Under the pieces are notes generated by a model. The model was not told the DNA's origin. It saw only the letters and a list, made by a program, of their open reading frames with translations, and made no database searches. From a virus, in the IMG/VR virus record IMGVR_UViG_3300048999_000104, positions 1 through 23,776 of that record: a stretch of 23,776 nucleotides of DNA; one strand, given 5' to 3'. Position numbers and translations under genes: made by a program. Shown piece after piece: positions 6,116 to 23,367 of the stretch (positions within the stretch are counted from its first letter, which is position 1; each line of letters begins with the position of its first letter).

Positions 6116-6157
6116 CCGCCGTCCAGGAGCCCGCGAGGGCAACACCACCCGCACCCG

Positions 6158-6192: not shown

Positions 6193-6209
6193 AGAAATGG
6201 AGAGCCATC

Positions 6210-7148: not shown

Positions 7149-7159
7149 CCGGCCGAGTC

Positions 7160-7212: not shown

Positions 7213-7233
7213 CCCACCCGGAAGGGAGGCACC

Positions 7234-7653: not shown

Positions 7654-7662
7654 GAGGTTGCC

Positions 7663-8010: not shown

Positions 8011-8013
8011 GCC

Positions 8014-8795: not shown

Positions 8796-8833
8796 GGGGA
8801 ACCGACAACCAACCTTCGGGACATCGGTCCCCT
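8795..8833 (+). promoter_or_regulatory. Stem-loop in the leader of the tail-tube gene
   Basis: AGGGGAACCGA (8795-8805) pairs with TCGGTCCCCT (8824-8833), giving 10 bp with one bulged A and an 18-base loop. It starts at the last base of the tail-terminator stop and ends 19 bases before the tail-tube ATG. It has nearly the same geometry as the stem-loop in front of the capsid gene (loop 19, same distance to the start). No T-run follows. Confidence 0.5.
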
Positions 8834-8852
8834 GTCCACAGTGGAGCCCTTC

Positions 8853-9458
8853 ATGGCTGACACCAACGGCCTGGAGCCCGGCAACCTCGTCATGGGGCCT
8901 GCCCGGCTGTACATCTACAAGAACGCGTTCGACCCGGCGCTTGCGTACGAGCCGAACCTGACCGACGTGAACCTGACGCCGGCTGCCTCGGCCTGGTACG
9001 ACACGGGCATCACGCTCGGCGGCACCAGCGTGACCGTCTCGCCGACGTGGACGAACCTCGTCGGCGACCAGCTGGTGGACAAGCTCGGCGCCCGGCTCAC
9101 CGACCGCGACATCAAGTGCACGATGAACTTCGCCGAGATGACGCGACCGAACCTCAGCTACGCCTGGAACATGACGGCGGGGGCGACAGGCGCGAACTAC
9201 GCCGTGTCGGACATCAACGCCGGCCAGACCGCGAACCGGGCCCCGTACCGGACGCTGCTGGTCGACGGCCTCGGCCCGGACAAGACCGACGGCAGCGCGT
9301 CGTTCAAACGGCGTGTGATCCTGCGGAAGGCACTGCCGTCCGGTAACACCGCGCTCCAGTGGGACAAGACGAACCAGCAGGTGCTGGCCGCGGAGTTCCA
9401 GGCGTTCTTCGTGTCCGAGTCGGTCAGCCCCATCCGGGTCATCGACCAGACCACCTGA
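8853..9458 (+). CDS. Major tail protein (tail tube)
   Basis: This 201-residue protein is likely the tail-tube subunit. It sits between the tail terminator and the G/GT chaperones, its usual place. Its sequence is beta-rich, with NLVMGPARLYIYKN, WYDTGITLGGTSVTVSPTW and a C-terminal AEFQAFFVSESVSPIRVID, a pattern common to tube proteins of actinophages. ATG 8853 is preferred over GTG 8841 because GGAG (8842-8845) lies seven bases before it. The gene is isolated from both neighbours by a stem-loop upstream (8795-8833) and a strong intrinsic terminator downstream (9471-9523). That layout suits a high-copy product. Confidence 0.88.
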   Translation: MADTNGLEPGNLVMGPARLYIYKNAFDPALAYEPNLTDVNLTPAASAWYDTGITLGGTSVTVSPTWTNLVGDQLVDKLGARLTDRDIKCTMNFAEMTRPNLSYAWNMTAGATGANYAVSDINAGQTANRAPYRTLLVDGLGPDKTDGSASFKRRVILRKALPSGNTALQWDKTNQQVLAAEFQAFFVSESVSPIRVIDQTT

Positions 9459-9470
9459 TCCACCCCCGAC

Positions 9471-9523
9471 GCAGCCCCGCGGCACGTGAGCCTGACCTCC
9501 GTGCCGTGGGGCTGCCCCCTTTT
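9471..9523 (+). terminator. Intrinsic terminator/attenuator after the tail-tube gene
   Basis: GCAGCCCCGCGGCACG (9471-9486) pairs over 16 bp (one G-U) with CGTGCCGTGGGGCTGC (9500-9515). The loop is 13 bases and the stem is followed by CCCCTTTT. This is a textbook intrinsic terminator shape placed 12 bases after the tail-tube stop, yet the tail chaperone, tape measure and all later tail genes lie beyond it on the same strand. It therefore probably acts as a partial terminator that raises tail-tube mRNA over downstream mRNA. Confidence 0.85.
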
Positions 9524-9546
9524 CGTCCTGTCAGGAGGACCACACC

Positions 9547-9954
9547 ATGGCTGCACCCACCTCGCGCAAGACCGCCCCGCGCAAGACCACCACCGCCCGC
9601 AAGCGCCTGGCCGCGAAGCCGGCGCCCGCACTGGGGCTGGTGCTCGACGACGACGCGGCGCGCGCCGCCACCGAGAAGCTGGTTGCCGACCGCGAGCCGC
9701 TGTTCACCATCGCGGGGACCACCTACACGATCCCGAAGCGCGTGCCACCGTCGTGGGCGATCAAGGCGTTCACCGTCGCGACCGAGCAGGGGGAGTCTGC
9801 GGCGCTGGCGTTCGCGGCCGAGAAGCTGCTGACCCCCGAGGCGTGGACCGCGCTTACCGACTGCGAGACCGTCACCGACGACGGCATGCACGCTGTGCTG
9901 AAGGCGCTGATGGACCGCATCCTGCCCGGCGGTGTCCTGGGCCCAAAAGCCTGA
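9547..9954 (+). CDS. Tail assembly chaperone G
   Basis: This 135-residue protein is the upstream chaperone of the G/GT pair. It has a Lys/Arg-rich, probably disordered start (residues 1-25) followed by a compact helical domain (IAGTTYTIPKRVPPSWAIKAFTVATEQ…). The AGGAGG ribosome site at 9533-9538 is excellent. The gene ends GGC CCA AAA GCC TGA, with a slippery heptamer just before the stop, so a fraction of ribosomes continue in the -1 frame to make the longer GT product. Both forms normally coat the tape measure during tail assembly in an uneven ratio and are absent from the finished virion. Confidence 0.9.
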   Translation: MAAPTSRKTAPRKTTTARKRLAAKPAPALGLVLDDDAARAATEKLVADREPLFTIAGTTYTIPKRVPPSWAIKAFTVATEQGESAALAFAAEKLLTPEAWTALTDCETVTDDGMHAVLKALMDRILPGGVLGPKA

Positions 9955-10310
9955 CCGAGGCATGGCACGAGCGGCTGTCGGCGGTCGGCTGGTTCTTCCT
10001 GCACCTGGACGACGTGCTCAGCGACATGTCGGTGTTCCACCGCGTGGACGACCTCGACGCGCTGACGGCCGCGGTGTTCCTGCCGCGGATGGTGCGTCTG
10101 CCGCATTACGACGGCGCCGTACGGCACGTGCTGCGCCGTGAGGGCGAGCAGCCGTCCACGGCCGTCTCAGCGCCCGCGCGAGCCACCGCGCCTGCCGAAC
10201 AGGCGGCATCCGTGCACGCACACACCGTGGGCGAGCTGTCCCGGATGAACCAGACCAAGGAATACGGCCCGCTGGGCGTGAATCAGGCCGGCGTTTTCGA
10301 CGTCGGGTGA
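9547..10310 (+). CDS. Tail assembly chaperone GT (made by -1 ribosomal frameshift)
   Basis: After the Lys codon at 9946-9948 ribosomes slipping back one base re-read from 9948 (AGC CTG ACC…) and continue to the TGA at 10308-10310, giving 134 + 120 = 254 residues. The T part (SLTEAWHERLSAVGWFFLHLDDVLSDMSVFHRVDDLDALTAAVF…, then a Pro/Ala-rich linker and …MNQTKEYGPLGVNQAGVFDVG) is not preceded by its own start codon or ribosome site. Frameshifted G-T fusion is well established in lambda-like and many actinophage tails. The T domain is thought to recruit tube subunits. Coordinates span both frames: 9547-9948, then 9948-10310. Confidence 0.9.
9942..9948 (+). promoter_or_regulatory. -1 ribosomal frameshift slippery heptamer
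   Basis: C CCA AAA in the zero frame of chaperone G matches the canonical X XXY YYZ slippery pattern. Both the P-site (CCA to CCC) and A-site (AAA to AAA) tRNAs can re-pair after a one-base backward slip. It is three bases before the zero-frame stop, and the -1 frame then stays open for 120 codons. Confidence 0.9.
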
Positions 10311-10320
10311 GGGGGTTCCG

Positions 10321-13300
10321 GTGGCGGGCGATTTCAAGCTTGCGGGTGCGTACGTCGAGGTCAACCTTCGGGACAACACGTCCGGTGACGAGAAGCGCAT
10401 TCGTGCGCGGATCGAGGGTGAGTCCGCGGTCACGTGGGACACCGCGCTGAATGACCCGAAGAACACCGAGATCGTCAAGCAGAAGGTGTCATCGGGCAAG
10501 CCCGTCCAGATCAGCGCCGACCTGGACGACAAGCTGGCGCAGGCGAAGGCTGACGAGTTCGTCGCGAAGCGGCGTTCCGTGGTCATCGACCTGGATGCGA
10601 ATATCGCCAAGCTCCGGATGAAGCTGGAGGAGCTGAACAAGAAGCGCGGCACCTCGGTCGAGGTGGATGCCGACATTCGCAAGGCAGAGGCTGAGCTGGC
10701 CGCGCTGGTGACTCGCCGCCGCACGGTGCAGCTGGAGGTACAGGCTAAGACCCGCCCTGCCGAGGACGAGATCTCTCGAATGGCGGCGCGGGCCAACGCG
10801 CAGTTCGACGCGCTGAAGTTCGCCGGCCTGTCGGTCGGGCTTCCGGCCGCGGCGGCGATCGGCGCAGCCGGCGTCGCGGGCTCGCTCGCGTTGGTGGCCG
10901 GTGGTTTCGGCGCGCTCGGGGTGTACATCGCGAGCACCGACGAGGACATTGCCAAGAAGTCGACTGCGTTGTCCGAGCAGGTGCAGACCGACGCCAAGGC
11001 CATGGGCGGGTCCTACAAGACCGAGGTCTCCGGCGCGCTCGATGACGTTGGCGCGGCGTGGGGCCGTCTCCGCCCGCAGGTGGCCGCTGCGGTGGACGCT
11101 TCGGCGCCCGCGGTCCGCATCCTCACCGGCGCGGTGACCGACCTGGCCGAGAACGCCATGCCCGGCCTGGTCGATGCGGCGAAGGCGTCCGGCCCGGCTC
11201 TGCTCGGTGTGCGCGCGTTCGCGGCGCAGGCCGGTAGTGGGCTGTCGGAGTTCTTCACGAACGCCTCGCAGGGCAGCGCCGGCGCCGAGCAGGGTTTCAC
11301 GCTGCTCGGTGGCGTCGTGCAGTTGCTGCTCGGCCGGTTCGGCACGCTGTTCGCGAACCTCGCCAGCGGCTCGGCGGGCCCGCTGAACTCGCTGTACGCG
11401 ATCGTGGACGACATCACCGGCGGCCTGGTCGACCTCACGGCGCAGGGCTCCGGCGCGATCGGTTTCCTGACCGGCTTCACCGGAACGGCGACCGGCGCGG
11501 CGGCGACGCTGCGCCTGCTGCTCGGCGTGCTTTCTGCGCTCCCGCCCGAGGTGACGCAGCTGGGTGGCTCGGTGGCTGCGTCGTCGCTGCTCCTCTCGAA
11601 GTTCGGCATCGACGCGGGCAAGGGTTTCGAGGGATTCGGCGAGAAGGTCAGCTCTGCCAAGGGAGCCACCGGCAAGTTCAGCGCCGTGGTGTCCGGGCTC
11701 GCCGCCAGCGCGTTCAACCCGGCGGCGCTGGGCGCGGTCGCGCTGGGTGTGGGGCTGGACATCCTCGGCCAGAAGCAGCAGGAGGCCGCGGCGAACACGG
11801 CCGCGCACGCCGAGCGCGAGCGGAACCTGACCGAGGCATTGCGCGACTCCGGCGGCGCGATCACCGACAACATCCGCAGTCTCGCGGTGCAGGATCTCGG
11901 CAACTACAAGGTCGCCGACGGCGTGCGCAACCTGAACAAGGACGTGCTCAACCTCGCCGGACCGCAAGGCCTCCAGCAGTTGCAGGACATGTACTTGGGC
12001 AACACGCAGGCCGGCGACAAGCTGAAGGCGACCCTTGACGCTCAAGTAGAGGCCGGGCGCAGGGTGGCGACCGGTTTCGAGGCGGCGCGCGCGCCGTTCG
12101 ACGACCACATCCGCTACGTCAACGGGGTCGCGTACGCCTACGACGACACGGGTTTCAAGGCGCAGCAGCTGCTGGACATTGTGGATTCCGAAGGCGGCAC
12201 GTTCGGCAATGCCTCGAAGGACGCCGATGCGAACGCGCAGGCGCTCAAAGGTGTGTCCAAGGCGGCCGAGCAGATCACGCCGCAGGCCTACGCGGCGAAG
12301 GTTGCAACGGCCGACTTGCAAGGCGCGTTTCAGACGCTGAACAACACCGCTGGCGACACGGTGTCCAAGGGCCAGGCGATTATCGACGTGATGGACCGCT
12401 TGTCGGGCAAGCACAAGTCCGAAGAGGAGGCGTTGCAGTCCTGGAACGATCACCTGCGCGGTATCGGTGATGCGTTCAAGACGCTCGACTTGGCGAAGCA
12501 CACCAAAGACCTGATCGACTCGTCGGGCGCGATCAACACCACCTCGGAAGCCGGGTCCAAGCTGCAAGACACGTTGCAGCAGGGTGCCACGGACATGGCC
12601 TCTTACGCGCAGTCGCTTAAGGACGGCGGCGCGTCGGCGGGTGAGATCACGGACAAGCTCGGGCCGATGCGTGACGAGTTCGCGAAGCAGCTTAAGCAGC
12701 TGGGCCTGAACGACGGCCAGGTGCAGGATCTGCTGAAGCACTACGGTTTGGTTCCCAGCGACATCACCACCACGATGGGGCTGGAGGGCGATGCCGACAC
12801 GCAGAAGGCCATCACGGACATCGTCAGCGGGCTCGCCAAGGTGCCTGCGAACGTGGGCGTGAAGGTCCAGGCGCTGACGGCGGAAGCTCAGAAGAATCTG
12901 ACCGATCTCGGCTACCACGTCGTGAACCTGCCCGACGGCACCGTGCAGGTGTTCGCGAACACGACCGAGGGCCAGCACGCGGCCGATGTGTTGCAGGCCA
13001 ACATCAACCAGACCCACGGCACGGTGAGCGTCTACGGCGACACCACGCCGGCGGGCTCGGCGGTGGCGAACTGGCAGACGGTCACGAACCGCACCATCGG
13101 CAACACGCTGGTGACGACGGACATCGACCCGGCCACGCGCCAAGTGCGGCAGTGGGAGCAGACGACCGACGAGACCGGCGCCGTCACCACGACGTTCTCC
13201 ACTGTGGACCCGGCCACCGGGGCGGTGCAGCAGTGGAAGCGGAACACCGACGGCACGTGGGCGACGGTCAACGTCAACGCGGACACCGGTGGTGCGATCA

Positions 13301-13746
13301 GTGCTATCCGGCAGATCACCGGGACCCGTTACAGCGCCACGGTGTACGTCACGGCGAACACCAGCGCTATCGGCGGTATCGAGATCCGCTCGGCGAAGTA
13401 CAACGCCCTGGGCAACCTGTACGGCCCGAACATGGGCTTCGCCGACGGGGGATTCCCGACACCGACAGCGGCGAACTCGTTCAACGGGCTCGCGCAGATC
13501 GTGAACCCCGGCACGTACAAGTGGGCCGGGGACGCGAAAGTGCCCGAGGTGTTCATCCCGCTGGACCGTGGTTCCGAGCGGTCGCAGGGGTTGCTGGACA
13601 AGGCGAACCAGCTGATGGGCCGGGCCACGACGGCGTCCGGCGCGACGATCGCCAATCACATCACCATCAACACCACGGAAGCTGACCCTCAGCGGGTCGC
13701 CGCTGCGGTGTCCGGTGAACTCGGCTGGGCAATGCGGGGGGTGTGA
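10321..13746 (+). CDS. Tape measure protein
   Basis: At 1141 residues this is the longest gene of the window and directly follows the G/GT chaperones, so it is the tape measure that sets tail length. By the rough rule of 0.15 nm per residue the tail would be about 170 nm. Residues about 1-165 are charged and helical (KLRMKLEELNKKRG, AEAELAALVTRRRTVQLEVQAK). Residues about 167-206 form a long hydrophobic, Gly/Ala-rich segment, with more at about 326-349, 390-412 and 470-485. The part at about 870-1020 is rich in Thr and strand-like repeats (TTDIDPATRQVRQWEQTTD, STVDPATGAVQQWKRNTD). No peptidase or lysozyme domain was recognised. GTG 10321 follows GAGGGGG at about 10310-10316. Confidence 0.95.
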   Translation: MAGDFKLAGAYVEVNLRDNTSGDEKRIRARIEGESAVTWDTALNDPKNTEIVKQKVSSGKPVQISADLDDKLAQAKADEFVAKRRSVVIDLDANIAKLRMKLEELNKKRGTSVEVDADIRKAEAELAALVTRRRTVQLEVQAKTRPAEDEISRMAARANAQFDALKFAGLSVGLPAAAAIGAAGVAGSLALVAGGFGALGVYIASTDEDIAKKSTALSEQVQTDAKAMGGSYKTEVSGALDDVGAAWGRLRPQVAAAVDASAPAVRILTGAVTDLAENAMPGLVDAAKASGPALLGVRAFAAQAGSGLSEFFTNASQGSAGAEQGFTLLGGVVQLLLGRFGTLFANLASGSAGPLNSLYAIVDDITGGLVDLTAQGSGAIGFLTGFTGTATGAAATLRLLLGVLSALPPEVTQLGGSVAASSLLLSKFGIDAGKGFEGFGEKVSSAKGATGKFSAVVSGLAASAFNPAALGAVALGVGLDILGQKQQEAAANTAAHAERERNLTEALRDSGGAITDNIRSLAVQDLGNYKVADGVRNLNKDVLNLAGPQGLQQLQDMYLGNTQAGDKLKATLDAQVEAGRRVATGFEAARAPFDDHIRYVNGVAYAYDDTGFKAQQLLDIVDSEGGTFGNASKDADANAQALKGVSKAAEQITPQAYAAKVATADLQGAFQTLNNTAGDTVSKGQAIIDVMDRLSGKHKSEEEALQSWNDHLRGIGDAFKTLDLAKHTKDLIDSSGAINTTSEAGSKLQDTLQQGATDMASYAQSLKDGGASAGEITDKLGPMRDEFAKQLKQLGLNDGQVQDLLKHYGLVPSDITTTMGLEGDADTQKAITDIVSGLAKVPANVGVKVQALTAEAQKNLTDLGYHVVNLPDGTVQVFANTTEGQHAADVLQANINQTHGTVSVYGDTTPAGSAVANWQTVTNRTIGNTLVTTDIDPATRQVRQWEQTTDETGAVTTTFSTVDPATGAVQQWKRNTDGTWATVNVNADTGGAISAIRQITGTRYSATVYVTANTSAIGGIEIRSAKYNALGNLYGPNMGFADGGFPTPTAANSFNGLAQIVNPGTYKWAGDAKVPEVFIPLDRGSERSQGLLDKANQLMGRATTASGATIANHITINTTEADPQRVAAAVSGELGWAMRGV

Positions 13747-13747
13747 G

Positions 13748-14659
13748 ATGCCGACGCAGGTGATCTTGCCGGTGTACTCGATCGGTTCGTGGTCGGCCAA
13801 TGTGGACGATGATCAGGGGTGCCGCTGGGTGATCGCACCCGGTGGCGCCTCGTTCGTCACCGACGGCGTGGGCCGCAAGACGCACACGCTGGAACGGCCG
13901 TTCGGTCCGGGCGCGTATCGATCGCGCTCGTACCTGACGGCTAAATCCGGTGTGCTGCAAGGCTGGTGCGACGCCGGCGGCGACCGTACCGCTCGGGTGG
14001 CCGCGCGGGATCGGCTGATGGCGCTGTTCGCGGGTGGCGGCACGGCGGTGCTCGCCGTGGACGACGGCATCTCACCGCGGCAGCTCACGGTCGAGCTGGA
14101 CGGCGGCGCACCGAAATGCGCGGTCTGGCCGGACGGCGGCGGTTTCGACTGGCAGATTGCGCTGTACGCCGCGGACCCGCGGTTCCTTTCGGCAGAAGTC
14201 ATGTACTCGGCGGCCCTGCCAGGCGGTGCGTCCACCGACGGCCTGAACTGGGCTGCCGGCTCGCCCGGCGGTCTCGACTGGGCTGCCGGCTCACCGGGAG
14301 GCCTCGACTGGGGCACTTCGGGCAGCGGCGTGAACGTGCTGACGATGACGAACTCCGGCAGCGCGCCGACGTGGCCGCTGCTGACGTTCACCAGTCCGGC
14401 GACGCTGACCAACCCGGTGCTCACCGACCCGGCCACGAGCCGGGTGTGGTCGTACTTGGGCGACATCGTTGCGGGGCAGACGTTGCGCGTCGACTGCTCG
14501 CCGTTCACGCGGTCGGTGACGCTCGACGGGGTCGACCGCTCCGGTGCGCTGGGCCTGGCGCAGTGGCCGGAGATCGGGCCCGGCCAGACCGTGAACCTTC
14601 AGCTGACCGGCATCGGTACCGGGACCTGTATCGCCGCGTGGCAAGCGGCCAACCTGTGA
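13748..14659 (+). CDS. Distal tail protein (Dit-like)
   Basis: This 303-residue protein follows the tape measure, the place of the Dit protein that forms the hexameric ring at the tail tip. The N-terminal half (RSRSYLTAKSGVLQGWCDAGGDRTARVAARDRLMALFAGGG, QLTVELDGGAPKCAVWPDGGGFDWQIALYAADPRFL) matches the N-terminal belt domain of siphovirus 'tail family' proteins. The C-terminal half (MTNSGSAPTWPLLTFTSPATL…GQTLRVDCSPFTRSVTLDG) matches the galectin-like domain usual in these. Between them a tandem repeat (residues about 165-188, unit GLxWAAGSPG) is inserted. ATG 13748 lies one base after the tape-measure stop (TGA 13744-13746). Longer in-frame extension upstream is within the tape-measure gene and is rejected. 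Confidence 0.83.
   Translation: MPTQVILPVYSIGSWSANVDDDQGCRWVIAPGGASFVTDGVGRKTHTLERPFGPGAYRSRSYLTAKSGVLQGWCDAGGDRTARVAARDRLMALFAGGGTAVLAVDDGISPRQLTVELDGGAPKCAVWPDGGGFDWQIALYAADPRFLSAEVMYSAALPGGASTDGLNWAAGSPGGLDWAAGSPGGLDWGTSGSGVNVLTMTNSGSAPTWPLLTFTSPATLTNPVLTDPATSRVWSYLGDIVAGQTLRVDCSPFTRSVTLDGVDRSGALGLAQWPEIGPGQTVNLQLTGIGTGTCIAAWQAANL
14240..14311 (+). repeat. 30-bp in-frame tandem repeat inside the Dit-like gene
   Basis: Units at 14240-14269 and 14270-14299, plus a 12-base partial unit at 14300-14311, are nearly identical. They encode GL(N/D)WAAGSPG repeated twice and then GLDWG. The units differ mainly at the third base or one residue, which suggests recent duplication kept in frame. It forms a Gly/Ser/Pro-rich linker with a tryptophan in each unit, between the two predicted domains. 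Confidence 0.9.
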
Positions 14660-14675
14660 GAAGGGGGCTTTCCTG

Positions 14676-15848
14676 ATGCCTACGAACGCAACCGCGACCG
14701 GCGTGTGGTCGGCGCAGACGCGCAACAACGCACGCCAGGGCCGTGCCCTGGTGCAGGCGGTCATGCTCGGCGCGTCGGCGACGGCGCCGCTGTCGGCGAA
14801 CCGGGCCGGGGTCATCCCGACCGCGGGCGACGGGACGAACATCTACGACGGCCGGGTGACCGTCTCGTCCGGACTGACGATGACGGTGCAGCCGATGTCT
14901 GCGGTGGTGAACCGCTCCGGCCAGGGCCCGTACCTCGGGTGGCTGCTGCCGTCTGCGGTCAACGTCACCTGCGACGCGGCGCCGGCGTCGAACCCGCGCC
15001 GGGACATCGTGGTGCTGCGCAACTACGACGCGGCGATCGGCGACACCGGCGGCGCGACCGGGCCGTGTCAGATCGAGATCATCACCGGCACGCCAGGTGC
15101 GTCCCCGGTGGACCCGGTCACGTGGGACACCACCGGCACGATCACCACGTGGCCCGCCGCAGCCTCGGGTGGCGGTGTCGGCATCCCGCTCGCGCGGGCC
15201 CAGGTCTCCACCGGCGGCGTCATCACCCTGACCGACATCCGCCGGTCGGCGGGTGTGCTCGGCGCGATCCGCGCGTTGCTGCCGGGCGACTCGCTGTCGG
15301 ACCCGGGTTTCCTGCCCGGGGAGCAGATCATCACCGGCGGTGTGGTCTACACGTGGAGCGGTAGCGCGTGGGTTCCGGTCGACTTGGTCGGCGCGAACCT
15401 CGGGTACGCAGAGTACTCGCAGACCACGGCGCAGACGATCACGACGAACACCGACACCCGGGCCACCTGGGATACGACGGTGGCGTCTTCGCCGGACATC
15501 TCCTACAGCGCAGGCGTTTTCACCGTGAACCGTGCGGGAGTCTGGGATATCTCGGGCACGATGCGGCTCAACGGGGCCGCAGGCAACGGTGTGTTCGAGC
15601 GGGCTGTGGTCTTGTCGACTACGTCCGCGACCGCGTACCGGTTCGGCGGCATGAACAACTACGACCCGAACCTGAACAGCGCGCCGTCGCCCTCGTATGT
15701 GGCCACGCAGTACCCGATCATCGGCAAGAAGCGGTTCGCCGTCGGTGACACCTTCGCGGTGTGGTTGTGGCAGTCGTCCGGGGGCAACCTCCCGACGCAC
15801 GTTCTGCTCGGCGCGAACCGCATCGCGATGAAGTGGACAGGTCCGTGA
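14676..15848 (+). CDS. Tail fibre/baseplate protein with C1q-like C-terminus
   Basis: This 390-residue protein shows a Thr/Ser/Gly-rich beta architecture. Residues about 1-245 contain strand-rich baseplate-like sequence (VTVSSGLTMTVQPMSAVVNRSGQGPYLGWLLPSAVNVTC, GPCQIEIITGTPG) common to actinophage minor tail proteins. Residues about 260-390 (STAGVFTVNRAGVWDISGTMRLNG… in pattern, FAVGDTFAVWLWQSSGGNL) resemble the C1q/TNF-like jelly-roll domain often found at phage receptor-binding tips. It is a likely host-contact protein. ATG 14676 has AAGGGGG at 14661-14667. The stop overlaps the next GTG by four bases. Function is inferred from the fold pattern and gene order. Confidence 0.7.
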   Translation: MPTNATATGVWSAQTRNNARQGRALVQAVMLGASATAPLSANRAGVIPTAGDGTNIYDGRVTVSSGLTMTVQPMSAVVNRSGQGPYLGWLLPSAVNVTCDAAPASNPRRDIVVLRNYDAAIGDTGGATGPCQIEIITGTPGASPVDPVTWDTTGTITTWPAAASGGGVGIPLARAQVSTGGVITLTDIRRSAGVLGAIRALLPGDSLSDPGFLPGEQIITGGVVYTWSGSAWVPVDLVGANLGYAEYSQTTAQTITTNTDTRATWDTTVASSPDISYSAGVFTVNRAGVWDISGTMRLNGAAGNGVFERAVVLSTTSATAYRFGGMNNYDPNLNSAPSPSYVATQYPIIGKKRFAVGDTFAVWLWQSSGGNLPTHVLLGANRIAMKWTGP

Positions 15849-16993
15849 CGCAGCCCGTGGAGCGGGAGTACGCCGCGCTCGTCTACCACACGACGACGGG
15901 CAAGGTGCTCTACGACCTGGACCTTGCTGCCGAGCCGGAGTGGTCGAGGGTCGTCAATGATCCGGGCGGGTGGAAGATCTCCGTTCCGATAGACGGCGGC
16001 CCGCGCACGGTGAAGGTGCGCGAGTGGTGCGTGCCGGACCGGTTCTCTGTGGCGGTGCTGCGCGGAGACTTCGTGTGCCAGGCCGGGCCGATCACCCCCT
16101 ACGCGCCGGACGACAGCACGACGGTGTTCACGGTGTCCGGTAAGGGGATTTGGGACATCCTGAACCGGCGGGTGCTGCACAACGCGGCGCTGCTGCCGTC
16201 ACAGCGGCTCAACGACCCGGCGGCGGACATCACGCTGACGGGCACCCTGCCCTACATCGCGCGCGAGATCGTCAACCACCAGATCAACATGTCGTTCATC
16301 GCCGGGTCGAACCTGCCGATCGACCTGCCCGCGATCTCGGCGGGCGGAACGGACACCCGCACCTACCACGGTTTCGACCTCGCGATGGGCGGTGCCCGGC
16401 TGCGGGAGTTGACGCAGGTCGACGGCGGGCCGGACGTGCTGTTCCAGCCGTATCTCACGGTCGTCGGTGGTGCGCGGTTCATCCGGCACCGCATGTTGGT
16501 CGGCAGTCCATGGCTGACGCAGCCGGGCGTGCCGCTGCGGTTCGACTACCGCTCGACCCTGACCAGTCTGACGATCGCGGGTGGCACGTCGCCGGGCGCG
16601 GTCCGGGCGTTCGTGAAGGGTACGGGGAACGAGGCCGGCCAGCTCTACGGCTCGGCCGTCGCCACCGACCTGATCAGCGCGGGCTGGCCACTGACGGACC
16701 TGGTCGACACTGGCCACACCGACGCGTCCGTGCAGTCCACACTGGACGGTTGGGCGACGGCGGATGTGTCGCTGTCGGCCGGGCAGGTCGAGCAGTGGCA
16801 GGCCACTGTCCTTGCGGATGCCGACCCGCGGCTGGACACCTACGTGCCCGGCCACTTCGTGAACTACTCGGTCGATGACCACCATTGGCTCGCCGACGGC
16901 GTTTACGCGTGGCGGCTGCTCGGCGTGTCCCGCACCGGTTCGACACCGCGGGACCGGGTGGATCACCAGCTGCAAGCCGTCCGCGGCGGATAG
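15845..16993 (+). CDS. Tail hub protein (Gp37-like minor tail protein)
   Basis: This 382-residue protein is probably a baseplate hub or tail-associated protein like the ReqiPepy6 Gp37 family found in many actinophages. Supporting segments are an N-terminal strand domain (EYAALVYHTTTGKVLYDLDLAAEPEWSRVVNDPGGWKISVP), VFTVSGKGIWDILNRRVLHNAALLPSQRLND and, later, PRDRVDHQLQAVRGG. Hub proteins share the motif 'F…G.G…W.L…' followed by a helical linker. The GTG start at 15845 overlaps the previous TGA by four bases (GTGA), so it is coupled. In typical phages this gene directly follows Dit; here the fibre-like gene intervenes. Confidence 0.7.
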   Translation: MTQPVEREYAALVYHTTTGKVLYDLDLAAEPEWSRVVNDPGGWKISVPIDGGPRTVKVREWCVPDRFSVAVLRGDFVCQAGPITPYAPDDSTTVFTVSGKGIWDILNRRVLHNAALLPSQRLNDPAADITLTGTLPYIAREIVNHQINMSFIAGSNLPIDLPAISAGGTDTRTYHGFDLAMGGARLRELTQVDGGPDVLFQPYLTVVGGARFIRHRMLVGSPWLTQPGVPLRFDYRSTLTSLTIAGGTSPGAVRAFVKGTGNEAGQLYGSAVATDLISAGWPLTDLVDTGHTDASVQSTLDGWATADVSLSAGQVEQWQATVLADADPRLDTYVPGHFVNYSVDDHHWLADGVYAWRLLGVSRTGSTPRDRVDHQLQAVRGG

Positions 16994-17004
16994 GAGAGAC
17001 GCTG

Positions 17005-17727
17005 ATGGTGGCGAACCCTCGACCCGAACGGCCACGGTCGAGCGACTTCCTGGTGAACCAGCTCGCGGAGCTGAAGCAGCAGAAGGACGCGCTCACGCGG
17101 CAGTCCAAGTACCCGTTCATGGTGTCGCACGACGATCCCGCGCTCGGCAACATCGTGGACGTGGCGATCGTGCCCCGGCCCAACGGGCTCAACGGCGCGG
17201 CCGTGCTCATCTACGACGGTGCCGAACACCTCGTTCTCGGGTCCGATGTGGACGCCGGGTACGGGTTGGCGCAACCGCAGACGCAGGTCCCGATGTACCC
17301 GACCAGTCCCGGGTTCATCTTCAACAGCGGTACGTCATTTGCGTCGTACTACACGGGGCAGGTGCAGCAGAACAACAGCTGCTTTCTGGCGCAGTGGCGG
17401 ATGAACAACTCGTACGGCGGGGCGGCTCCGTCATCGACCGTCGAGAGCTTCGTCAGGATCACCGACTCGGTAACCGGCTGGTCGTGGCAGTCGCCCACCG
17501 TGCAGTCCGGGCCCACCACGGCGACCTCGCCCGGCCTGCTCACCACGTGCGGGCCGTACGCCGTGCAGGTGCCGCAGGCGAGCATCGGCAATTTCTTCAC
17601 TGTTGACATCTTTTCGCGGCTGGTCTCGGGCGGCGGCGGGTCGGCGGTTGCCGTCACGCCGCTGTCCATGATCGGCACGGCGCAGTTCTTCGCACAGGCG
17701 TACTTCGCCGGAATCGTTACACCGTAG
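17005..17727 (+). CDS. Minor tail protein (unassigned)
   Basis: This 240-residue protein is beta-rich with aromatic and Ser/Thr-rich segments (VAIVPRPNGLNGAAVLIYDG, GYGLAQPQTQVPMYPTSPGFIFNSGTSF, FVRITDSVTGWSWQSPTV) and a Gly-rich C-terminus. I do not recognise its family; position at the end of the tail genes suggests a tail-tip or fibre-accessory protein. ATG 17005 has TAGGAGAG at 16991-16998, in which the ribosome site overlaps the previous stop. No transmembrane or signal sequence is visible. Confidence 0.6.
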   Translation: MVANPRPERPRSSDFLVNQLAELKQQKDALTRQSKYPFMVSHDDPALGNIVDVAIVPRPNGLNGAAVLIYDGAEHLVLGSDVDAGYGLAQPQTQVPMYPTSPGFIFNSGTSFASYYTGQVQQNNSCFLAQWRMNNSYGGAAPSSTVESFVRITDSVTGWSWQSPTVQSGPTTATSPGLLTTCGPYAVQVPQASIGNFFTVDIFSRLVSGGGGSAVAVTPLSMIGTAQFFAQAYFAGIVTP

Positions 17728-17739
17728 GGAGATTGAGCA

Positions 17740-17892
17740 ATGAGCGATGTCAGCTTCGAGCAGATCAACACGGAGGTGGCTCGGCTCGTTTTCAGCGCCG
17801 AGGCGACCACGCAGTGGGACAACGTGCGATTCACCTTGGAGCGTGACGCCAACGACAACATCGTGGGTCTCACGATGATCAAGGTGGGCTGA
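17740..17892 (+). CDS. Small protein of 50 residues before the holin-like gene
   Basis: An open frame from ATG 17740 to TGA 17890-17892 encodes MSDVSFEQINTEVARLVFSAEATT…, 50 residues ending …IVGLTMIKVG. A ribosome site GGGAGA lies at 17727-17732 and the next GTG is two bases after its stop, so it sits snugly between neighbours. It is acidic and has a helix-strand look. There is no membrane segment, so it is not a holin itself. It could be a tail accessory or a lysis regulator, but no function is recognisable. It is below the length that automated callers often require. Confidence 0.65.
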   Translation: MSDVSFEQINTEVARLVFSAEATTQWDNVRFTLERDANDNIVGLTMIKVG

Positions 17893-17894
17893 CC

Positions 17895-18140
17895 GTGAGC
17901 ACGACGGACGATCGACGCAGCGGCGTCACGATCACCAACCGCGAGATCTACGACTTGCTGCTGGAGAACACCCGCGTGACGCGGGACCTCGCGGGCAAGG
18001 TGACCGCGATCGAGACGCGCGACACCGACCACGAGTCGCGGATCCGGTCACTGGAGCAGTGGCGGTGGACGATCGGCGGCGTGATCACGGTCGTCTCGTG
18101 GGCCGGCGCAGCCGCGGTGTCTGCGCTGACGGGGGGTTGA
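17895..18140 (+). CDS. Holin-like membrane protein (XhlA-type layout)
   Basis: This 81-residue protein has a hydrophilic N-terminus (residues 1-55: helix-forming REIYDLLLENTRVTRDLAGKVTAIETRDTDHESRIRSLEQW in heptad-like spacing) and one C-terminal membrane helix (about 58-77: WTIGGVITVVSWAGAAAVSA). That layout, and position directly before the endolysin, is typical of the XhlA/haemolysin-type holin-associated proteins of Gram-positive phages. GTG 17895 is the start used; its stop is two bases before the endolysin ATG. Whether it alone forms the lesion or needs a second protein is not visible. Confidence 0.72.
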   Translation: MSTTDDRRSGVTITNREIYDLLLENTRVTRDLAGKVTAIETRDTDHESRIRSLEQWRWTIGGVITVVSWAGAAAVSALTGG

Positions 18141-18142
18141 GC

Positions 18143-19126
18143 ATGGCACTCGGCATCGATATCTACCGTTCGTTCCAGACCGTCACCAGCTGGCCGGCAG
18201 TCAAGGGCGCGGGCGTCACCTTCGCCTACGTCAAGCTGACCGACGGCGCCGGCGTCGCCACCGGCGGCCGAGGCGACAACGAGGTGAACGGCGCAAGGTC
18301 CGTTGGCATCCCGGTGGGCGGCTACCACTTCGTGCAGGCCAGCCCCGGTCCGGCGGCGCAGGCGGACATACTGCTCGGCGAGGTGATCCGCACCGGCGCC
18401 ACCGGCTGTGTGCCGGTGCTGGATCTGGAGGACAACCCGCCGGGCTCCAGTCGCCCGAACATCCCGGACAGCCAGAAACGGGCGTTCGCCATCGCCTTCT
18501 GCCAGCGCATCATCGAGCGGGGCTACCGGCCGGGCGTCTACATGAACAACGCGTTGGCCAAGCTCCTGCGCCCAGACCAGTGGGGCGTGCCCGGCCTGGT
18601 CATCTGGATCGCGCGCTACGGCGGCAAGCCGGACGCGGCGGCCGGGCGCTACGACATCCACCAGTACAGCTCATCTGGCGCCATCCCCGGCATCACTGCT
18701 CAGGGTGTGGACCTCGATGAGAGCTACACCACGGCGCACCTCACGGCGGGCGTAACGGTGCCCGTCGCAGACCAGGAGGAAGACATGCCCGACCGAGAGC
18801 TGTTGCCCACCGGCGGGGCGCGCGCCCGCTCGGTGACCCTCACCGTTCCGAAGTCCGCCGCGGAGATCGTGGTGGCGCTCGGGTGGGTGCCGCTGTTCGT
18901 GACCAAGCTGGCCGTCTACGGCCCGTCGCCAGCCACCGGCACCACCGCGCTGTACGTGGAGGACCACGCCGCCGCGCCCAAGCGGATCGACGGCGGCCGG
19001 CCGTGGCAGATCGCCCTGGCCGCCGCGCGCGCCAAGGGCGACGCCGTCACGGTCGAACTGACGTACTCGCTCGCGCCGGCCCCGGCCGACAAGCCAGACA
19101 CCCGCGCGACGATCGGTTTCCGGTGA
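18143..19126 (+). CDS. Endolysin, GH25 muramidase
   Basis: This 327-residue protein is a lysozyme cleaving the peptidoglycan glycan backbone to release progeny. The GH25 barrel spans about residues 3-200: GIDIYRS at 4-10 (catalytic-site Asp6), YVKLTDG, YHFVQAS at 61-67, the DXE catalytic pair in VLDLED (D94/E96) and IHQYSSSGAIPGITAQGVDLDES near the end. After a linker (about 200-215, VADQEEDMPDRELLP), residues 216-327 form a strand-rich domain (SVTLTVPKSAAEIVVALGW, VTVELTYSLAP) that could bind the cell wall but matches no repeat family I know. No signal peptide is present, so it depends on the holin. GGGGGG at 18131-18136 precedes ATG 18143. A strong terminator ends the operon 23 bases downstream. 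Confidence 0.92.
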   Translation: MALGIDIYRSFQTVTSWPAVKGAGVTFAYVKLTDGAGVATGGRGDNEVNGARSVGIPVGGYHFVQASPGPAAQADILLGEVIRTGATGCVPVLDLEDNPPGSSRPNIPDSQKRAFAIAFCQRIIERGYRPGVYMNNALAKLLRPDQWGVPGLVIWIARYGGKPDAAAGRYDIHQYSSSGAIPGITAQGVDLDESYTTAHLTAGVTVPVADQEEDMPDRELLPTGGARARSVTLTVPKSAAEIVVALGWVPLFVTKLAVYGPSPATGTTALYVEDHAAAPKRIDGGRPWQIALAAARAKGDAVTVELTYSLAPAPADKPDTRATIGFR

Positions 19127-19997: not shown

Positions 19998-20033
19998 GAT
20001 TTCGCGAACTCAGTCTACGGATTTCGCGAAATC
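19998..20033. promoter_or_regulatory. Paired TTCGCGAA palindromes, operator-like
   Basis: GATTTCGCGAAATC (20020-20033) is a perfect 14-bp palindrome. GATTTCGCGAACTC (19998-20011) is a near copy 22 bases upstream, which places both on the same face of the helix. On the minus strand a weak -35 (TTGGTT) and -10 (TAGACT) can be drawn with an 18-base spacer containing the perfect palindrome. This is the usual position of a repressor site. The likely binder is the XRE protein encoded at 20893. Confidence 0.65.
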
Positions 20034-20050
20034 TCAACCAAGTGCACACG

Positions 20051-20104
20051 ATTGGACCAATTTTCGTCCCGCTGGTTGGTGCCATGATCGGAAGTCGCGA
20101 AACC
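20051..20104. promoter_or_regulatory. Additional palindromes and third operator-like half-site
   Basis: ATTGGACCAAT (20051-20061) is an 11-base palindrome around a central A. GAAGTCGCGAAACC (20091-20104) shares the TCGCGAAA core with the upstream operators. Both lie between the divergent genes. The second lies 19 bases before the 80-residue gene's start. Promoter elements on the plus strand are not clear. Confidence 0.5.
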
Positions 20105-20122
20105 CCCACGTCAGGAGGACCG

Positions 20123-20365
20123 ATGACTCAGCAACACGACGACCGGCAGCACGACGAACCGCTGGAACTGGAGTTCCTGGGTACGACCAGCGCGGGCGGC
20201 AACTGCCCGAACGCCTACCGCACCAACCGCGGCACCTTCGTGGTCCAGGGCTACAAGATCACCGACCCGTCCGCGCTGAAGAAGTTGCACGATCGCGGGA
20301 TGCCGGAGACCGAGACCGCAGTGGAGATCCCGGTCGAGCTGCTCGACTTCTTCCAGGGCGCCTGA
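20123..20365 (+). CDS. Small protein of the DUF6879/XRE cassette
   Basis: This 80-residue protein (central …SAGGNCPNAYRTNRGTFVVQGYK, then ITDPSALKKLHDRG and a C-terminal VEIPVELLDFF) resembles small proteins seen upstream of DUF6879 genes in actinobacteria. It appears to have a beta-hairpin core and a helix, with one conserved-looking Cys. It is not the canonical DUF397 partner (whose 'W.KSSYSGG.GGNC' pattern is different although the Gly-Gly-Asn-Cys is reminiscent). AGGAGGA at 20113-20119 gives a strong start at ATG 20123. The stop overlaps the next start closely (TGATGG at 20363-20368), so the cassette is translationally coupled. Confidence 0.78.
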   Translation: MTQQHDDRQHDEPLELEFLGTTSAGGNCPNAYRTNRGTFVVQGYKITDPSALKKLHDRGMPETETAVEIPVELLDFFQGA

Positions 20366-20883
20366 TGGGGGAGCGCCTGACCGGCGACGCGTGGGGCCGG
20401 GCGCTGCACAGCTTCACTCGGACCGCGTTCCGATGGGAGGCGCAAGGCGTCTATCGCGAACCGTACGAGCAGGAGTCGATCCGGCAGTTCCTCGCCGGGC
20501 AGCAGCCGGACACCGCGTTCCTACAGGACTGGCTCGACGACGTCCGCCGCACCACCGACGCCGGCCGCCGCTACAGCCGGGTGCGGGTCCTGACCGACCC
20601 GCTCACCGACTACCTGCGGTGGGAGCTGTCCATCTCGCACCTGAACGCCGCGGCTGGGGAGGAGATCCGCGTGCTCTCCGCCGCGCGGCAGCGCACGCTC
20701 GGCGTGCCGGACACCGACTTCTGGCTGTTCGACGACGAGTGGGCAGCGGTGATGCACTTCGGCGACGAGGGCTTCCTGTACGCCGACGTCGTCCGGGACC
20801 CTGCCGAGGTTGGTGAATTTCTCGAAATTCGCGACCGGGTGTGGGACGATGCTGTCGCGTTCGAGGAGTTCACTGTGCGATAG
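20365..20883 (+). CDS. DUF6879-like protein
   Basis: This 172-residue protein matches, from memory of the family, actinobacterial DUF6879 proteins. An N-terminal helical part ends in YSRVRVLTDPLTDYLRWELSISHLNAAAGEEIRVL (broken over two elements), then DTDFWLFDDEWAAVMHFGDEG, and finally a C-terminal RDRVWDDAVAFEEF. These genes sit next to XRE/DUF5753 regulators in Streptomyces and Pseudonocardiaceae; their biochemical role is unknown. The 3' end contains an AT-rich palindrome (20815-20830), unusual for the surrounding GC-rich codons, just before the regulator gene. ATG 20365 overlaps the stop of the 80-residue gene. Confidence 0.82.
   Translation: MGERLTGDAWGRALHSFTRTAFRWEAQGVYREPYEQESIRQFLAGQQPDTAFLQDWLDDVRRTTDAGRRYSRVRVLTDPLTDYLRWELSISHLNAAAGEEIRVLSAARQRTLGVPDTDFWLFDDEWAAVMHFGDEGFLYADVVRDPAEVGEFLEIRDRVWDDAVAFEEFTVR
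20815..20830. promoter_or_regulatory. AT-rich palindrome within the DUF6879-like gene, candidate internal operator
   Basis: GAATTTCTCGAAATTC (7-bp arms around a TC centre) lies about 60 bases upstream of the XRE gene start and is followed by GCGA, giving a core like the other sites (TTCTCGAA / TTCGCGA). It encodes GEFLEI(R) with codons that avoid G/C at third positions in part (GAA, TTT, GAA, ATT), unlike neighbours. Confidence 0.4.
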
Positions 20884-20892
20884 CGAGGGCGA

Positions 20893-21741
20893 GTGCCAAG
20901 CAGCTTCGAGAAGCGGCGGACGGAGTTCGGCGAGCAACTGCGCCAGCTCCGTGCCGCCGCTGGCTACGAGACCGGCAAGGACTTTGCCCAGGCGATCGGC
21001 TGGAACGCACCCAAGGTCAGCAAGATCGAGAACGGGCGGCAGACCGCCAGCGATGACGATCTCGATGCGTGGCTCGCCGCCGTCGACGCACCGGACGATG
21101 TCGCCGCCACGCTGCGCGCGATGCTTGAGTCGATCCGCAACGCCTACGTCACCTGGAAAGAAGCGGTCCGCGCCGGCCACCGCGCCCGGCAAGAGCAATC
21201 CATCGGTCGCGAGGCGAAAGCCAAGCGAATCCGGGCGTACGACGCCAACATGGTGTCCGGTCTCGTTCAGATCCCTGAGTACGCTCGCCACGCGCTGACC
21301 AAGCACGCCGCGATCCACGGTGGCGCACAAGACATCACCGAAGCTGTGCAGACTCGGATGCGGCGGCAGCAGATCCTCTACGAGCCCGGCCGCACGATCG
21401 AGCTGCTGACTACCGAGGCTGCGCTTCGGCACCCGGGCGCGCCGCGAGACGTCATGGTCGCGCAGCTGCATCGCCTGCTCGCCACGGTCGGCATGCCCGG
21501 CGTCCGGCTCGGGATCATCCCGATGAACGTCGAGCTGCCCTACCCGCTGACTACCGACTTCTGGATTGTCGATGACGTCGTGATGATCGAGACACCCACC
21601 GCCGAGCTGACCATCGACGACCCGGACGAGGTCGCCACGTTCGACAAGATCGCCGATCTGATGTGGACCGTCGCGGAGGAAGGCGACGCCGCCCGCGCCA
21701 CGCTCCTGCGCGTGCTCGGCGACCTTGCACCGGCGGGCTAG
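20893..21741 (+). CDS. XRE-family regulator with DUF5753 domain
   Basis: This 282-residue protein has an N-terminal helix-turn-helix at about residues 8-65 (FGEQLRQLRAAAGYETGKDFAQAIGWNAPKVSKIENGRQTASDDDLDAW) followed by a DUF5753/Scr1-type C-terminal domain (RIRAYDANMVSGLVQIPEYARHALTKHA; then TRMRRQQILYEPGRTIELLTTEAALRH; then GVRLGIIPMNVELPYPLTTDFWI, DDPDEVATFDKIADLMW). Scr1-like proteins in Streptomyces act with small DUF397 partners and regulate secondary metabolism and development. Here the partner appears to be DUF6879. GTG 20893 is the only in-frame start near GAGGGC at 20885-20890. It probably binds the TTCGCGAA palindromes (inference). Confidence 0.9.
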   Translation: MPSSFEKRRTEFGEQLRQLRAAAGYETGKDFAQAIGWNAPKVSKIENGRQTASDDDLDAWLAAVDAPDDVAATLRAMLESIRNAYVTWKEAVRAGHRARQEQSIGREAKAKRIRAYDANMVSGLVQIPEYARHALTKHAAIHGGAQDITEAVQTRMRRQQILYEPGRTIELLTTEAALRHPGAPRDVMVAQLHRLLATVGMPGVRLGIIPMNVELPYPLTTDFWIVDDVVMIETPTAELTIDDPDEVATFDKIADLMWTVAEEGDAARATLLRVLGDLAPAG

Positions 21742-21775: not shown

Positions 21776-21809
21776 GAGCCCCGGCCGCCGTGAAGGCTGA
21801 CCGGGGCTC
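21776..21809. terminator. Bidirectional intrinsic terminator
   Basis: GAGCCCCGG (21776-21784) and CCGGGGCTC (21801-21809) form a perfect 9-bp stem with a 16-base loop. Read on the minus strand it is followed by TTTCGTG, a usable tail for the lipoprotein operon; on the plus strand it serves the XRE gene that ended 34 bases earlier. A smaller stem CGTGCC/GGCACG (21818-21840) precedes it on the minus side. Confidence 0.82.
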
Positions 21810-21846
21810 GCTTACTGCGTGCCGAGGGGCGGCAGGCACGTCGTGG

Positions 21847-22461
21847 TCAGTATTTCCACTCCCAGCCGTGTGCACCCTGGCCGAGTAGTCCTGAGCCATC
21901 GGTGAGCTGGAGCGCGCCGGTCTTGTCCGTCGTGGCGATGGCAATCTGGCCGGTGTACGTGCGATTGGGGCCGTACGCCGACGGCAGTTGCTTCGTCGAT
22001 AACAGGCACATGTCGGTTTCAGCCTGGTTCGTGACGCCGTCGTTGCCGGTCGTAGATAAGGCGTACGGATTGATTAGGCCGGGCAGGATCCCGAAAGCGC
22101 TGGAGCCTTGGTCTGCGTCCTTGTCGGTGTGCGTCTGGACAGTCACGTCCAGCAAGATCGTGTGGTTGCCCGCGCTGCGGGACATGTAGGCATCGCACTT
22201 CGGGTCCACCGTGATTCTCGTGATCCAGAAATCGACTGCGGCGCTGCCGTCGGTGTTCGTGATGCCCGCACGCTCGCCCACCTTTTTCGTGATGTAGCCC
22301 GAAACCGGTGCGGACGGAGTGGGCGCGGCGGTCGGTGGCACGCTGGCGGGCGCGGCAACAGCAGTGGCGCCGGGGGTTGTCTTGGGCGCCTCATGGCCGC
22401 ACGCCGTCAGCGCGAGAGTGGCGCCCGCCGCCATCGCGAGCAGAGCGATTCGCTTAATCAT
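21847..22461 (-). CDS. Secreted lipoprotein
   Basis: This 204-residue protein begins MIKRIALLAMAAGATLALTAC, a signal peptide with a lipobox LTAC (Cys21 would be lipidated). A Pro/Thr/Ala linker (about 25-60) precedes a strand-rich domain (about 62-204) with two further cysteines (DPKCDAY, DMCLLS) that resembles the immunoglobulin-like DUF4352 fold common in actinobacterial lipoproteins; the family name is tentative. Start ATG 22461 has AAGGGG (22470-22475 on the complement) seven bases away. The longer frame upstream is rejected because the signal peptide starts here. In phages, lipoproteins of this kind can block injection by related phages. Alternatively it serves the host. Confidence 0.85.
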   Translation of the reverse strand: MIKRIALLAMAAGATLALTACGHEAPKTTPGATAVAAPASVPPTAAPTPSAPVSGYITKKVGERAGITNTDGSAAVDFWITRITVDPKCDAYMSRSAGNHTILLDVTVQTHTDKDADQGSSAFGILPGLINPYALSTTGNDGVTNQAETDMCLLSTKQLPSAYGPNRTYTGQIAIATTDKTGALQLTDGSGLLGQGAHGWEWKY

Positions 22462-22483
22462 GGTGTGGCCCCTTGGTCTGGTG

Positions 22484-22497
22484 TGATCGGAAGTCGC
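22484..22497. repeat. 14-bp repeat shared with the XRE-cassette promoter region
   Basis: TGATCGGAAGTCGC occurs here, 22 bases upstream of the lipoprotein start, and exactly again at 20085-20098, 25 bases upstream of the 80-residue gene. Orientation relative to the gene differs between the two sites. The shared core includes GAAGTCGC of the third operator-like site. Confidence 0.6.
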
Positions 22498-22523
22498 CGG
22501 GCGCCACCTGGCCGTTACGGCGC

Positions 22524-22985
22524 TCACGCGAACCGCACCCGGCAGGCCCACACGTTTTCTCCGTCGAACGGCACTCGCTCGGGCTGCGCGATCAGGTGAT
22601 CGTCATAGAAGATCGCGCAACCCGCAGCATCGTCACCGACCGGCGCGGATACGTACACCACCAGGTCGAGCAGCCCGACCGCCTTCGTGGTCTGGAAGTG
22701 CGCCGAATCGCCGCCGGAGTTCGGCAGGTTGGTTGGGCCGGTGTCGCCGAACACCTCGCCGACGACGCGGAATACGGTGCCGGGCGCGCCCGTGACGCTG
22801 ACGACCACCTCGTGCTGTACAGGTGCGTGAGCCTCGACGTAGCTGGCCGCGTCGACGGCCGGGGTCGCGTGGCCGGGCACCGTGGTGGCGAGCGAGCTGG
22901 ACGCCCACAGCGCCAGCAGCGCGACGACCACAATCACGGCGACGAGCCCGGCGAGAGCAGCAACGACGGTCGCGGTGCGCTTCAC
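22524..22985 (-). CDS. MmpS-like membrane-anchored protein
   Basis: This 153-residue protein has one N-terminal membrane helix (about residues 6-30) and an extracytoplasmic domain. That domain has the MmpS-like pattern: EVVVSVTGAPGTVFRVVGEVFGD, LLDLVVYVSAP, then a cysteine pair C123/C148 in AGCAIFYDDH and VWACRVRF that is likely disulfide-bonded. MmpS proteins of mycobacteria partner MmpL transporters; none is visible here, so the role is uncertain. GTG 22985 is chosen because it overlaps the upstream gene's TGA by four bases (GTGA). ATG 23009 (adds eight residues) is possible. A 62-base gap separates it from the lipoprotein gene. Confidence 0.7.
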   Translation of the reverse strand: MKRTATVVAALAGLVAVIVVVALLALWASSSLATTVPGHATPAVDAASYVEAHAPVQHEVVVSVTGAPGTVFRVVGEVFGDTGPTNLPNSGGDSAHFQTTKAVGLLDLVVYVSAPVGDDAAGCAIFYDDHLIAQPERVPFDGENVWACRVRFA

Positions 22986-23164
22986 AGGTCTGCGCTGCTC
23001 GGGTCGCATTTTCCGTTGCCCATCGTGGTGCAGTCCCAACATGACTGGTCCTCTTCGCAGTGAGCGGTGGTGGGCGACGGCTTGCCCCGGGCGGTGCTGC
23101 CGCACTGAGCGGCGAGGGTGAACGGCAGGAGGACCACGGCGAGCACCACCAGCACCCGGCTCAT
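22982..23164 (-). CDS. Small secreted cysteine-rich protein
   Basis: This 60-residue protein has a clear signal peptide (MSRVLVVLAVVLLPFTLAAQ) and then five cysteines in the remaining 40 residues (C21, C36, C42, C45, C53), in the pattern HCEEDQSCWDCTTMGNGKC. An odd number of cysteines suggests dimerisation or one free thiol, or a lipid-modified Cys21, although Q before it is not lipobox-like. Its start overlaps the preceding stop (ATGA) and its stop overlaps the next GTG, so it is translationally coupled. No family was recognised; it may be a secreted effector or adhesion factor. Confidence 0.68.
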   Translation of the reverse strand: MSRVLVVLAVVLLPFTLAAQCGSTARGKPSPTTAHCEEDQSCWDCTTMGNGKCDPSSADL

Positions 23165-23367
23165 CGGGTACCACCCTTGAGCGCGTCGAGCGCGGCGACG
23201 ACGTCGGCGCGCATGGCGGCGATCCGCTCGGTCTCCGGGCGCATGGCGGCGACGTCGGCGCGCTGGCGCCGGGCGGCGCGCAGCTGCTCGTCCGCGCGGG
23301 CGAGTCGATCCGAGACGGCGCGGCTCCGGCGGAGGAAGTGGAACAGGGTGCCGAGTGACTTGGGCAA
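23161..23367 (-). CDS. Small coiled-coil protein, first gene of the envelope operon
   Basis: This 68-residue protein starts with TTG at 23367, supported by AGGAG (23374-23378 on the complement) six bases upstream; no ATG is in place. It is almost wholly helical with heptad-like runs of Ala/Leu/Arg (DRLARADEQLRAARRQRADVAAMRPETERIAAMRADVVAALDALKGG). The start MPKSLGTLFHFLRR is amphipathic and could associate with a membrane. It is linked to the Cys-rich gene by an ATGA overlap. No function is recognised. Confidence 0.66.
   Translation of the reverse strand: MPKSLGTLFHFLRRSRAVSDRLARADEQLRAARRQRADVAAMRPETERIAAMRADVVAALDALKGGTR

Follow-up and report, generated by a model that had tools for sequence, protein, structure and literature searches.

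A conserved three-gene cassette with a WhiJ-type regulator and a predicted pseudo-phospholipase D protein beside phage lysis genes

Comparison with WhiJ/BldB modules

The WhiJ/BldB modules of Streptomyces, such as Scr1/Scr2 and WhiJ9/BldB9, encode an HTH and DUF5753 regulator with a small DUF397 partner next door. DUF397 has been described as a four-stranded domain with one helix (PMC7159879). WhiJ9 is a direct-repeat-binding protein that activates iosA and has a modest repressive effect on its own expression; DNA binding is not a property of BldB, and the two kinds of protein are fused in 129 known cases (PMC10294661). In an earlier model, according to the account given in PMC6262351, the small partner relieves WhiJ from its operator. 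In S. coelicolor, Scr1/Scr2 and 14 further pairs behaved as regulators rather than toxins in the assays carried out (PMC6262351, PMC10364602).

The DNA analyzed here (the window) is a 23,776-base virus record from IMG/VR. Genes for terminase, portal, scaffold, head, tape-measure, and tail proteins and for a GH25 endolysin were recognized at positions 1230-19126, in agreement with the phage setting given in the initial annotation. The endolysin gene (18128-19126, + strand; Pfam PF01183, E = 2.8e-21; PHROG 291) lies just upstream of the cassette and marks its slot in the phage. The cassette consists of three co-directional genes on the + strand, whose ends overlap by one base or nearly abut. The first encodes a small partner protein of 80 aa (20123-20365; ATG after AGGAGGACCG; motif CPxxYxTxRGTxVVQGxxxTD...AVEIP). 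The second encodes a DUF6879 protein of 172 aa (20365-20883), a predicted PLD-fold pseudoenzyme, which matched Pfam PF21806 with an E value of 1.4e-53 and a score of 181 bits against a gathering cut-off of 23.9. The third encodes a WhiJ-type regulator of 282 aa, referred to below as XRE (20893-21741; HTH_31, E = 7.7e-13; DUF5753, E = 2.1e-33; PHROG 9908, E = 1.2e-36). The cassette of small protein, DUF6879, and XRE/DUF5753 proposed earlier for 20123-21741 is therefore exact in its coordinates, with Pfam matches for the latter two proteins. The comparison with Scr1-like regulators was also apt, since the XRE protein is a DUF5753 protein like WhiJ and Scr1.

The cassette further resembles whiJ-bldB(-abaA) modules in its leader repeats, in fusions of the partner, and in its comparable place in phages. 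However, the partner comes first and the XRE gene last, a DUF6879 pseudo-PLD is added, no AbaA ATPase is present, and the small protein, unlike the partner in WhiJ/BldB modules, has no DUF397 match. In a tree of XRE proteins, DUF6879-associated and DUF397-associated members were separate (2 label changes versus 20.4 expected from shuffles), and 22 of 24 DUF397-associated proteins were placed behind a branch with an SH-aLRT value of 99. The window XRE belongs to the DUF6879-associated lineage, outside the DUF397-associated one. Lacking a DUF397 partner and having an XRE protein of another lineage, the cassette is not regarded as a WhiJ/BldB member, although by analogy it resembles these modules in its probable role.

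The small-protein family, with the signature C-P-x-x-Y-x-T-D-R-G-T-x-V-V-Q-G, is conserved upstream of DUF6879 in most loci. No Pfam family was matched by the 80-aa protein. In an AlphaFold2 (AF2) model of a natural fusion, the small domain is predicted to have three or four strands followed by a helix at the C-terminus. The motif and the strand-helix topology resemble those of DUF397, but a divergent DUF397 was rejected because neither local nor global hhalign was significant (P = 0.33 against 30 DUF397 proteins). With no detectable DUF397, the analogy to BldB rests on the arrangement and rough topology, and the small protein may be called BldB-like by position only. The small domain is duplicated in one chain in ~20 loci, many of them from Nocardia (e.g., L013 4619-5035 and L003 3682-4020).

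Relatives of DUF6879 came from 97 plasmid records, one phage record (Streptomyces phage Kromp), 35 IMG/VR contigs, and GTDB genomes (80 of 429 loci kept); a few loci are present in both IMG/VR and GTDB. With seed-built profiles, a locus was scored as the unit when, within 400 bp and on one strand, DUF6879 was preceded by (or fused to) the small gene and followed by an XRE/DUF5753 gene. Both partners were present in the fixed order around 130 of the 153 full-length DUF6879 genes. An even draw of 296 same-phylum genomes gave 14 above the Pfam DUF6879 cut-off; in the unselected species sample of the phylum, both partners stood beside 16 of 21 DUF6879 genes. At least eight loci (L002, L153, L162, L170, L171, L181, L182, and L183) encode a fused small-DUF6879 protein ahead of the XRE gene, and three such fusions are already annotated as a single polypeptide in plasmid records. 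Furthermore, pairwise distances correlated between XRE and DUF6879 (r = 0.79; permutation maximum, 0.05), XRE and the small protein (0.61), and DUF6879 and the small protein (0.66). The gene order, the fusions, these correlations, and the split in the XRE tree indicate that the module travels and evolves together, and this conserved three-gene unit spans filamentous actinomycetes, their plasmids, and their phages. Most copies are on chromosomes and plasmids. In five loci (L076, L081, L115, L152, and L158), small-DUF6879 pairs occur without an adjacent XRE gene, so the pair may also work alone. In Streptoalloteichus tenebrarius (L101 4995-6538), three tandem DUF6879 genes lie between the small gene and the XRE gene.

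Candidate operators of the cassette

Two operator-like sites of the form GATTTCGCGAA(C/A) are located in the leader at 19998-20033 (+ strand), 22 bp apart from start to start, and the second is a full palindrome, GATTTCGCGAAATC. Inside these repeats, just upstream of the operon, TTCGCGAA occurs twice, at 20001 and 20023. The same two sites with the same 22-bp spacing were found in the cassette leader of Amycolatopsis azurea (L042 4648 and 4670; second site, GATTTCGAGAA), whose DUF6879 protein is 63-64% identical to that of the window, and one such site was found in the leader of Prauserella muralis (L043). A third, partial site, AAGTCGCGAAACCC (20092-20105, + strand), is close to the start codon and repeats the main site in the same orientation (76% over 21 nt); its TCGCGAAACCCCC is also found in A. 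azurea. The leader alignment revealed one more element, CACACGATTGGACCAAT (20047-20063, + strand), identical in A. azurea and similar in P. muralis (CACCCGGTTGGGCCAAT), which could be a promoter or a second regulatory site. A scan of the leader for a consensus sigma-70 promoter found none.

In addition, an operator-like site, GAATTTCTCGAAATTCG, was detected within the 3' end of the DUF6879 gene (20815-20831, + strand), ~65 bp before the XRE start. The DUF6879 gene, whose third positions are 89% G+C, has its sole TTT and its sole ATT codon in this site. The site is identical in A. azurea (17 of 17), and GATTTCGCGAAATTCG is present at the homologous codons of P. muralis despite a change of the encoded Leu to Arg. 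The sequence GATTTCGNGAA is rare, with 10 matches on both strands of 1.76 Mb of fetched DNA, and its matches in the A. azurea and P. muralis loci are all in the leader or at the intragenic site. Across 139 leaders, perfect 6+6 inverted repeats were about twice as frequent as in shuffles (1.01 versus 0.52 per 200 bp). Taken together, there is good evidence that the GATTTCGnGAA-like sites in the leader and at the DUF6879 3' end are candidate cognate operators. The suggestion that the cassette has its own operators is supported by these TTTCGCGAA-type candidate sites, which recur at matching places in the two relatives.

Downstream of the XRE gene, a hairpin with the stem GAGCCCCGGCC..GACCGGGGCTC (21776-21810, no strand assigned) precedes a convergent lipoprotein gene. 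It folds slightly better than shuffles (z = -1.59), has no T run, and is a possible, if weak, candidate for a terminator. No clear terminator was found in a scan of the cassette, and a search for RNA elements gave no Rfam match.

Predicted fold of the DUF6879 protein

The AF2 model of the window DUF6879 protein, built from 110 aligned sequences, had a mean pLDDT of 97.6. In a Foldseek search of the PDB, the top matches of the model all had the PLD fold (E values from 7e-5; TM ~0.5), with TrmBL2, Streptomyces PLD, human PLD3, TrmB, and Zucchini among the best. A separate model of the natural fusion L170, for which the smaller set A7 was used as the alignment with single-domain rows, had a pLDDT of 93; its Foldseek matches were PLD, Zucchini, NucT, and Nuc, with a TM score of 0.63 (normalized by target) against Nuc (1byr). 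Comparison of the DUF6879 sequence with the PDB gave chance matches only. The model thus shares its predicted overall fold with the phospholipase D, Nuc, and Zucchini nucleases, whereas their catalytic HxKxxxxD motif is absent from all 110 aligned DUF6879 sequences. Y30, R72, P79, G98, D118, W120, and D123 show little or no variation, and, judging from the model topology, D118-x-W120-x-x-D123 would sit on the strand where the HKD motif is expected. DUF6879 is therefore predicted with high confidence to be a pseudo-PLD, with a phospholipase-D fold and no HKD motif. The initial annotation had described it as a protein of no known biochemistry. No paper on DUF6879 was found in the open-access library searched. 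The description can now be amended in part by this prediction.

The archaeal regulators TrmB and TrmBL2 likewise have a non-catalytic PLD-fold domain linked to HTH regulation. The likeness is known at the level of the fold alone (about 10-15% identity; TM ~0.5), and in TrmB the PLD fold is fused to the HTH, whereas DUF6879 is a separate protein beside XRE. The PLD-type fold of TrmB is its sugar-binding domain (PDB 2f5t title), and this analogy makes ligand sensing by DUF6879 plausible.

Phage setting and possible roles of the cassette

An endolysin-type gene was present within 5 kb of the cassette in at least 18 distinct phage or prophage loci (the window and 17 others), a lower bound obtained with six queries. 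The nearby endolysin gene has PHROG support in L010, L012, and P. muralis; in A. azurea, the nearby gene encodes a peptidase-like phage protein with no PHROG lysis label. The cassettes most closely related to that of the window, from A. azurea and P. muralis, likewise follow phage-like or lysis genes; these nearest copies are thus probably prophage copies, and the host of the window phage is probably a member of the Pseudonocardiaceae, such as Amycolatopsis-like soil bacteria. Such cassettes had been called seldom described in phages. This holds for isolated phages, with Kromp as the single case in 50,697 records, but 35 further IMG/VR contigs have one, and the closest known copies follow phage or lysis genes. 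In Kromp, the cassette is flanked on one side by tail genes and lysis genes (endolysin and holin) and on the other by three small genes and by genes for an HTH protein, a tyrosine integrase, a second HTH protein, and an immunity repressor. An integrase gene is located on the far side of the cassette also in L010 and L050. The window extends 2 kb past the cassette, and no integrase gene was found in it; on the basis of the relatives, the window phage is probably temperate.

The lipoprotein gene of the window (21847-22551, - strand; lipobox LALTACG; PHROG 25640, E = 1.6e-8) points toward the cassette, and a lipoprotein-like gene has the same relative place in the viral contig L010 (6399-6959, - strand). 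Phage lipoproteins of this kind can act in superinfection exclusion. Beside it, a gene at 22524-23174 (- strand) encodes a protein with a single membrane span and no clear Pfam family. In the Streptomyces phages Samy (L210 2998-4043) and Darolandstone (L211 2296-4061), XRE/DUF5753-DUF397 pairs were found near the integrase gene, in Darolandstone between the endolysin and integrase genes and together with an AbaA-like HATPase. These pairs and the placement of the cassette indicate that WhiJ-type modules of two related kinds are found at comparable sites in actinophages.

The published findings on WhiJ9, BldB, and Scr1/Scr2 favor a self-regulated switch, and our leading interpretation, held with about even confidence, is that phages carry the cassette next to their lysis genes as accessory cargo, and that it works as a self-regulated transcriptional switch of a WhiJ/BldB-like kind. 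XRE would recognize the TTTCGCGAA-type sites of the leader and of the DUF6879 3' end, and would govern its own operon and, perhaps, promoters of the host or the phage. Acting as a single unit, the small protein and the pseudo-PLD would bind XRE and alter its activity. The former catalytic cleft of DUF6879 would probably serve to sense a ligand or partner, much as TrmB detects sugars with its PLD-fold domain, and the switch would be expressed from the prophage. We infer these steps, from DNA binding, complex formation, and ligand sensing to the direction and targets of regulation and expression in the lysogen. The fixed gene order, the fusions, the distance correlations, the conserved operator-like sites, the predicted fold without HKD, and the recurrent lysis-side slot also speak for the switch; the lack of similarity between the small protein and DUF397 and the small-DUF6879 pairs with no XRE neighbor speak against it. 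The cassette may be a phage moron, or lysogenic-conversion cargo: its operator-like sites are conserved and its place near lysis genes recurs, but the scans gave neither a consensus promoter nor a convincing terminator. If the cassette acts like WhiJ/BldB, phages would have a route to influence host development and antibiotic production. The cassette also offers another entry to the long-unexplained BldB/WhiJ system, and the predicted fold, the operator candidates, and the list of natural fusions make the function of DUF6879 directly testable.

Ranked second, and clearly less probable than the switch, is a type II toxin-antitoxin (TA) or addiction module, in which the small protein and/or DUF6879 is a toxin, XRE is the antitoxin and autorepressor, and the prophage or plasmid is stabilized. 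The order of partner then XRE and the candidate leader operators resemble those of HigBA/MqsRA-type systems, the linkage of the genes is near-obligate, copies are present on plasmids and phages, and Makarova et al. predicted in 2009 that XRE-DUF397 pairs are TA systems (PMC2701414). However, Scr2 and 14 other DUF397 partners of S. coelicolor were non-toxic when tested (PMC6262351, PMC10364602). The cassette also differs from HigBA/MqsRA in having three genes and no RelE-like or MqsR toxin, and neither the small protein nor DUF6879 matched a toxin above cut-off in Pfam, NCBIfam, or PADLOC. The predicted PLD fold without its catalytic motif and the small-DUF6879 pairs that lack an adjacent XRE gene also argue against a TA module.

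Control of lysogeny, with XRE as the phage immunity repressor and the small protein and DUF6879 as its anti-repressor, ranks third and is unlikely. It would suit a repressor-like HTH protein with repeated operators, encoded next to the lysis module on one side and, as seen in relatives, the integrase on the other. Kromp, however, has the cassette in addition to an annotated immunity repressor, two HTH proteins, and its own integrase, so this role, one of those first suggested, is improbable as the main one. The many chromosomal and plasmid copies also speak against it, as do the TTCGCGAA sites of the window outside the cassette (11350, 12679, and 12952), which all fall within the tape-measure gene and not at phage promoters. 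Least probable of the four is prophage defense or superinfection exclusion, in which DUF6879 would sense an invader and XRE would keep the operon silent. Such a role is compatible with the accessory position beside lysis genes, with the lipoprotein gene directly behind the cassette in the window and L010, and with PADLOC matches of XRE to RmrA and HTH_VI. These matches are weak (E = 4e-4 to 0.03) and cover mainly the HTH, so membership in a defense system was rejected on the PADLOC search, and the cassette has no effector domain.

Beyond the switch itself, we tentatively consider a broader and doubtful reading in which actinophages would keep a standard cargo site on the lysis side for interchangeable WhiJ-type modules that reprogram the development or secondary metabolism of the lysogen. 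Two kinds of module would share this site: small protein-DUF6879-XRE and XRE-DUF397, the latter with or without an AbaA-like ATPase. DUF6879 would then be a ligand-sensing pseudo-PLD, a class of sensor not described in such a role.

A sister phage is represented by the contig IMGVR_UViG_3300048999_000342 (L186), which has the same first base as the window and whose first 120 nt are identical to window positions 1-120, suggesting a fixed left genome end. This contig stops at about window position 19934, just short of the cassette.
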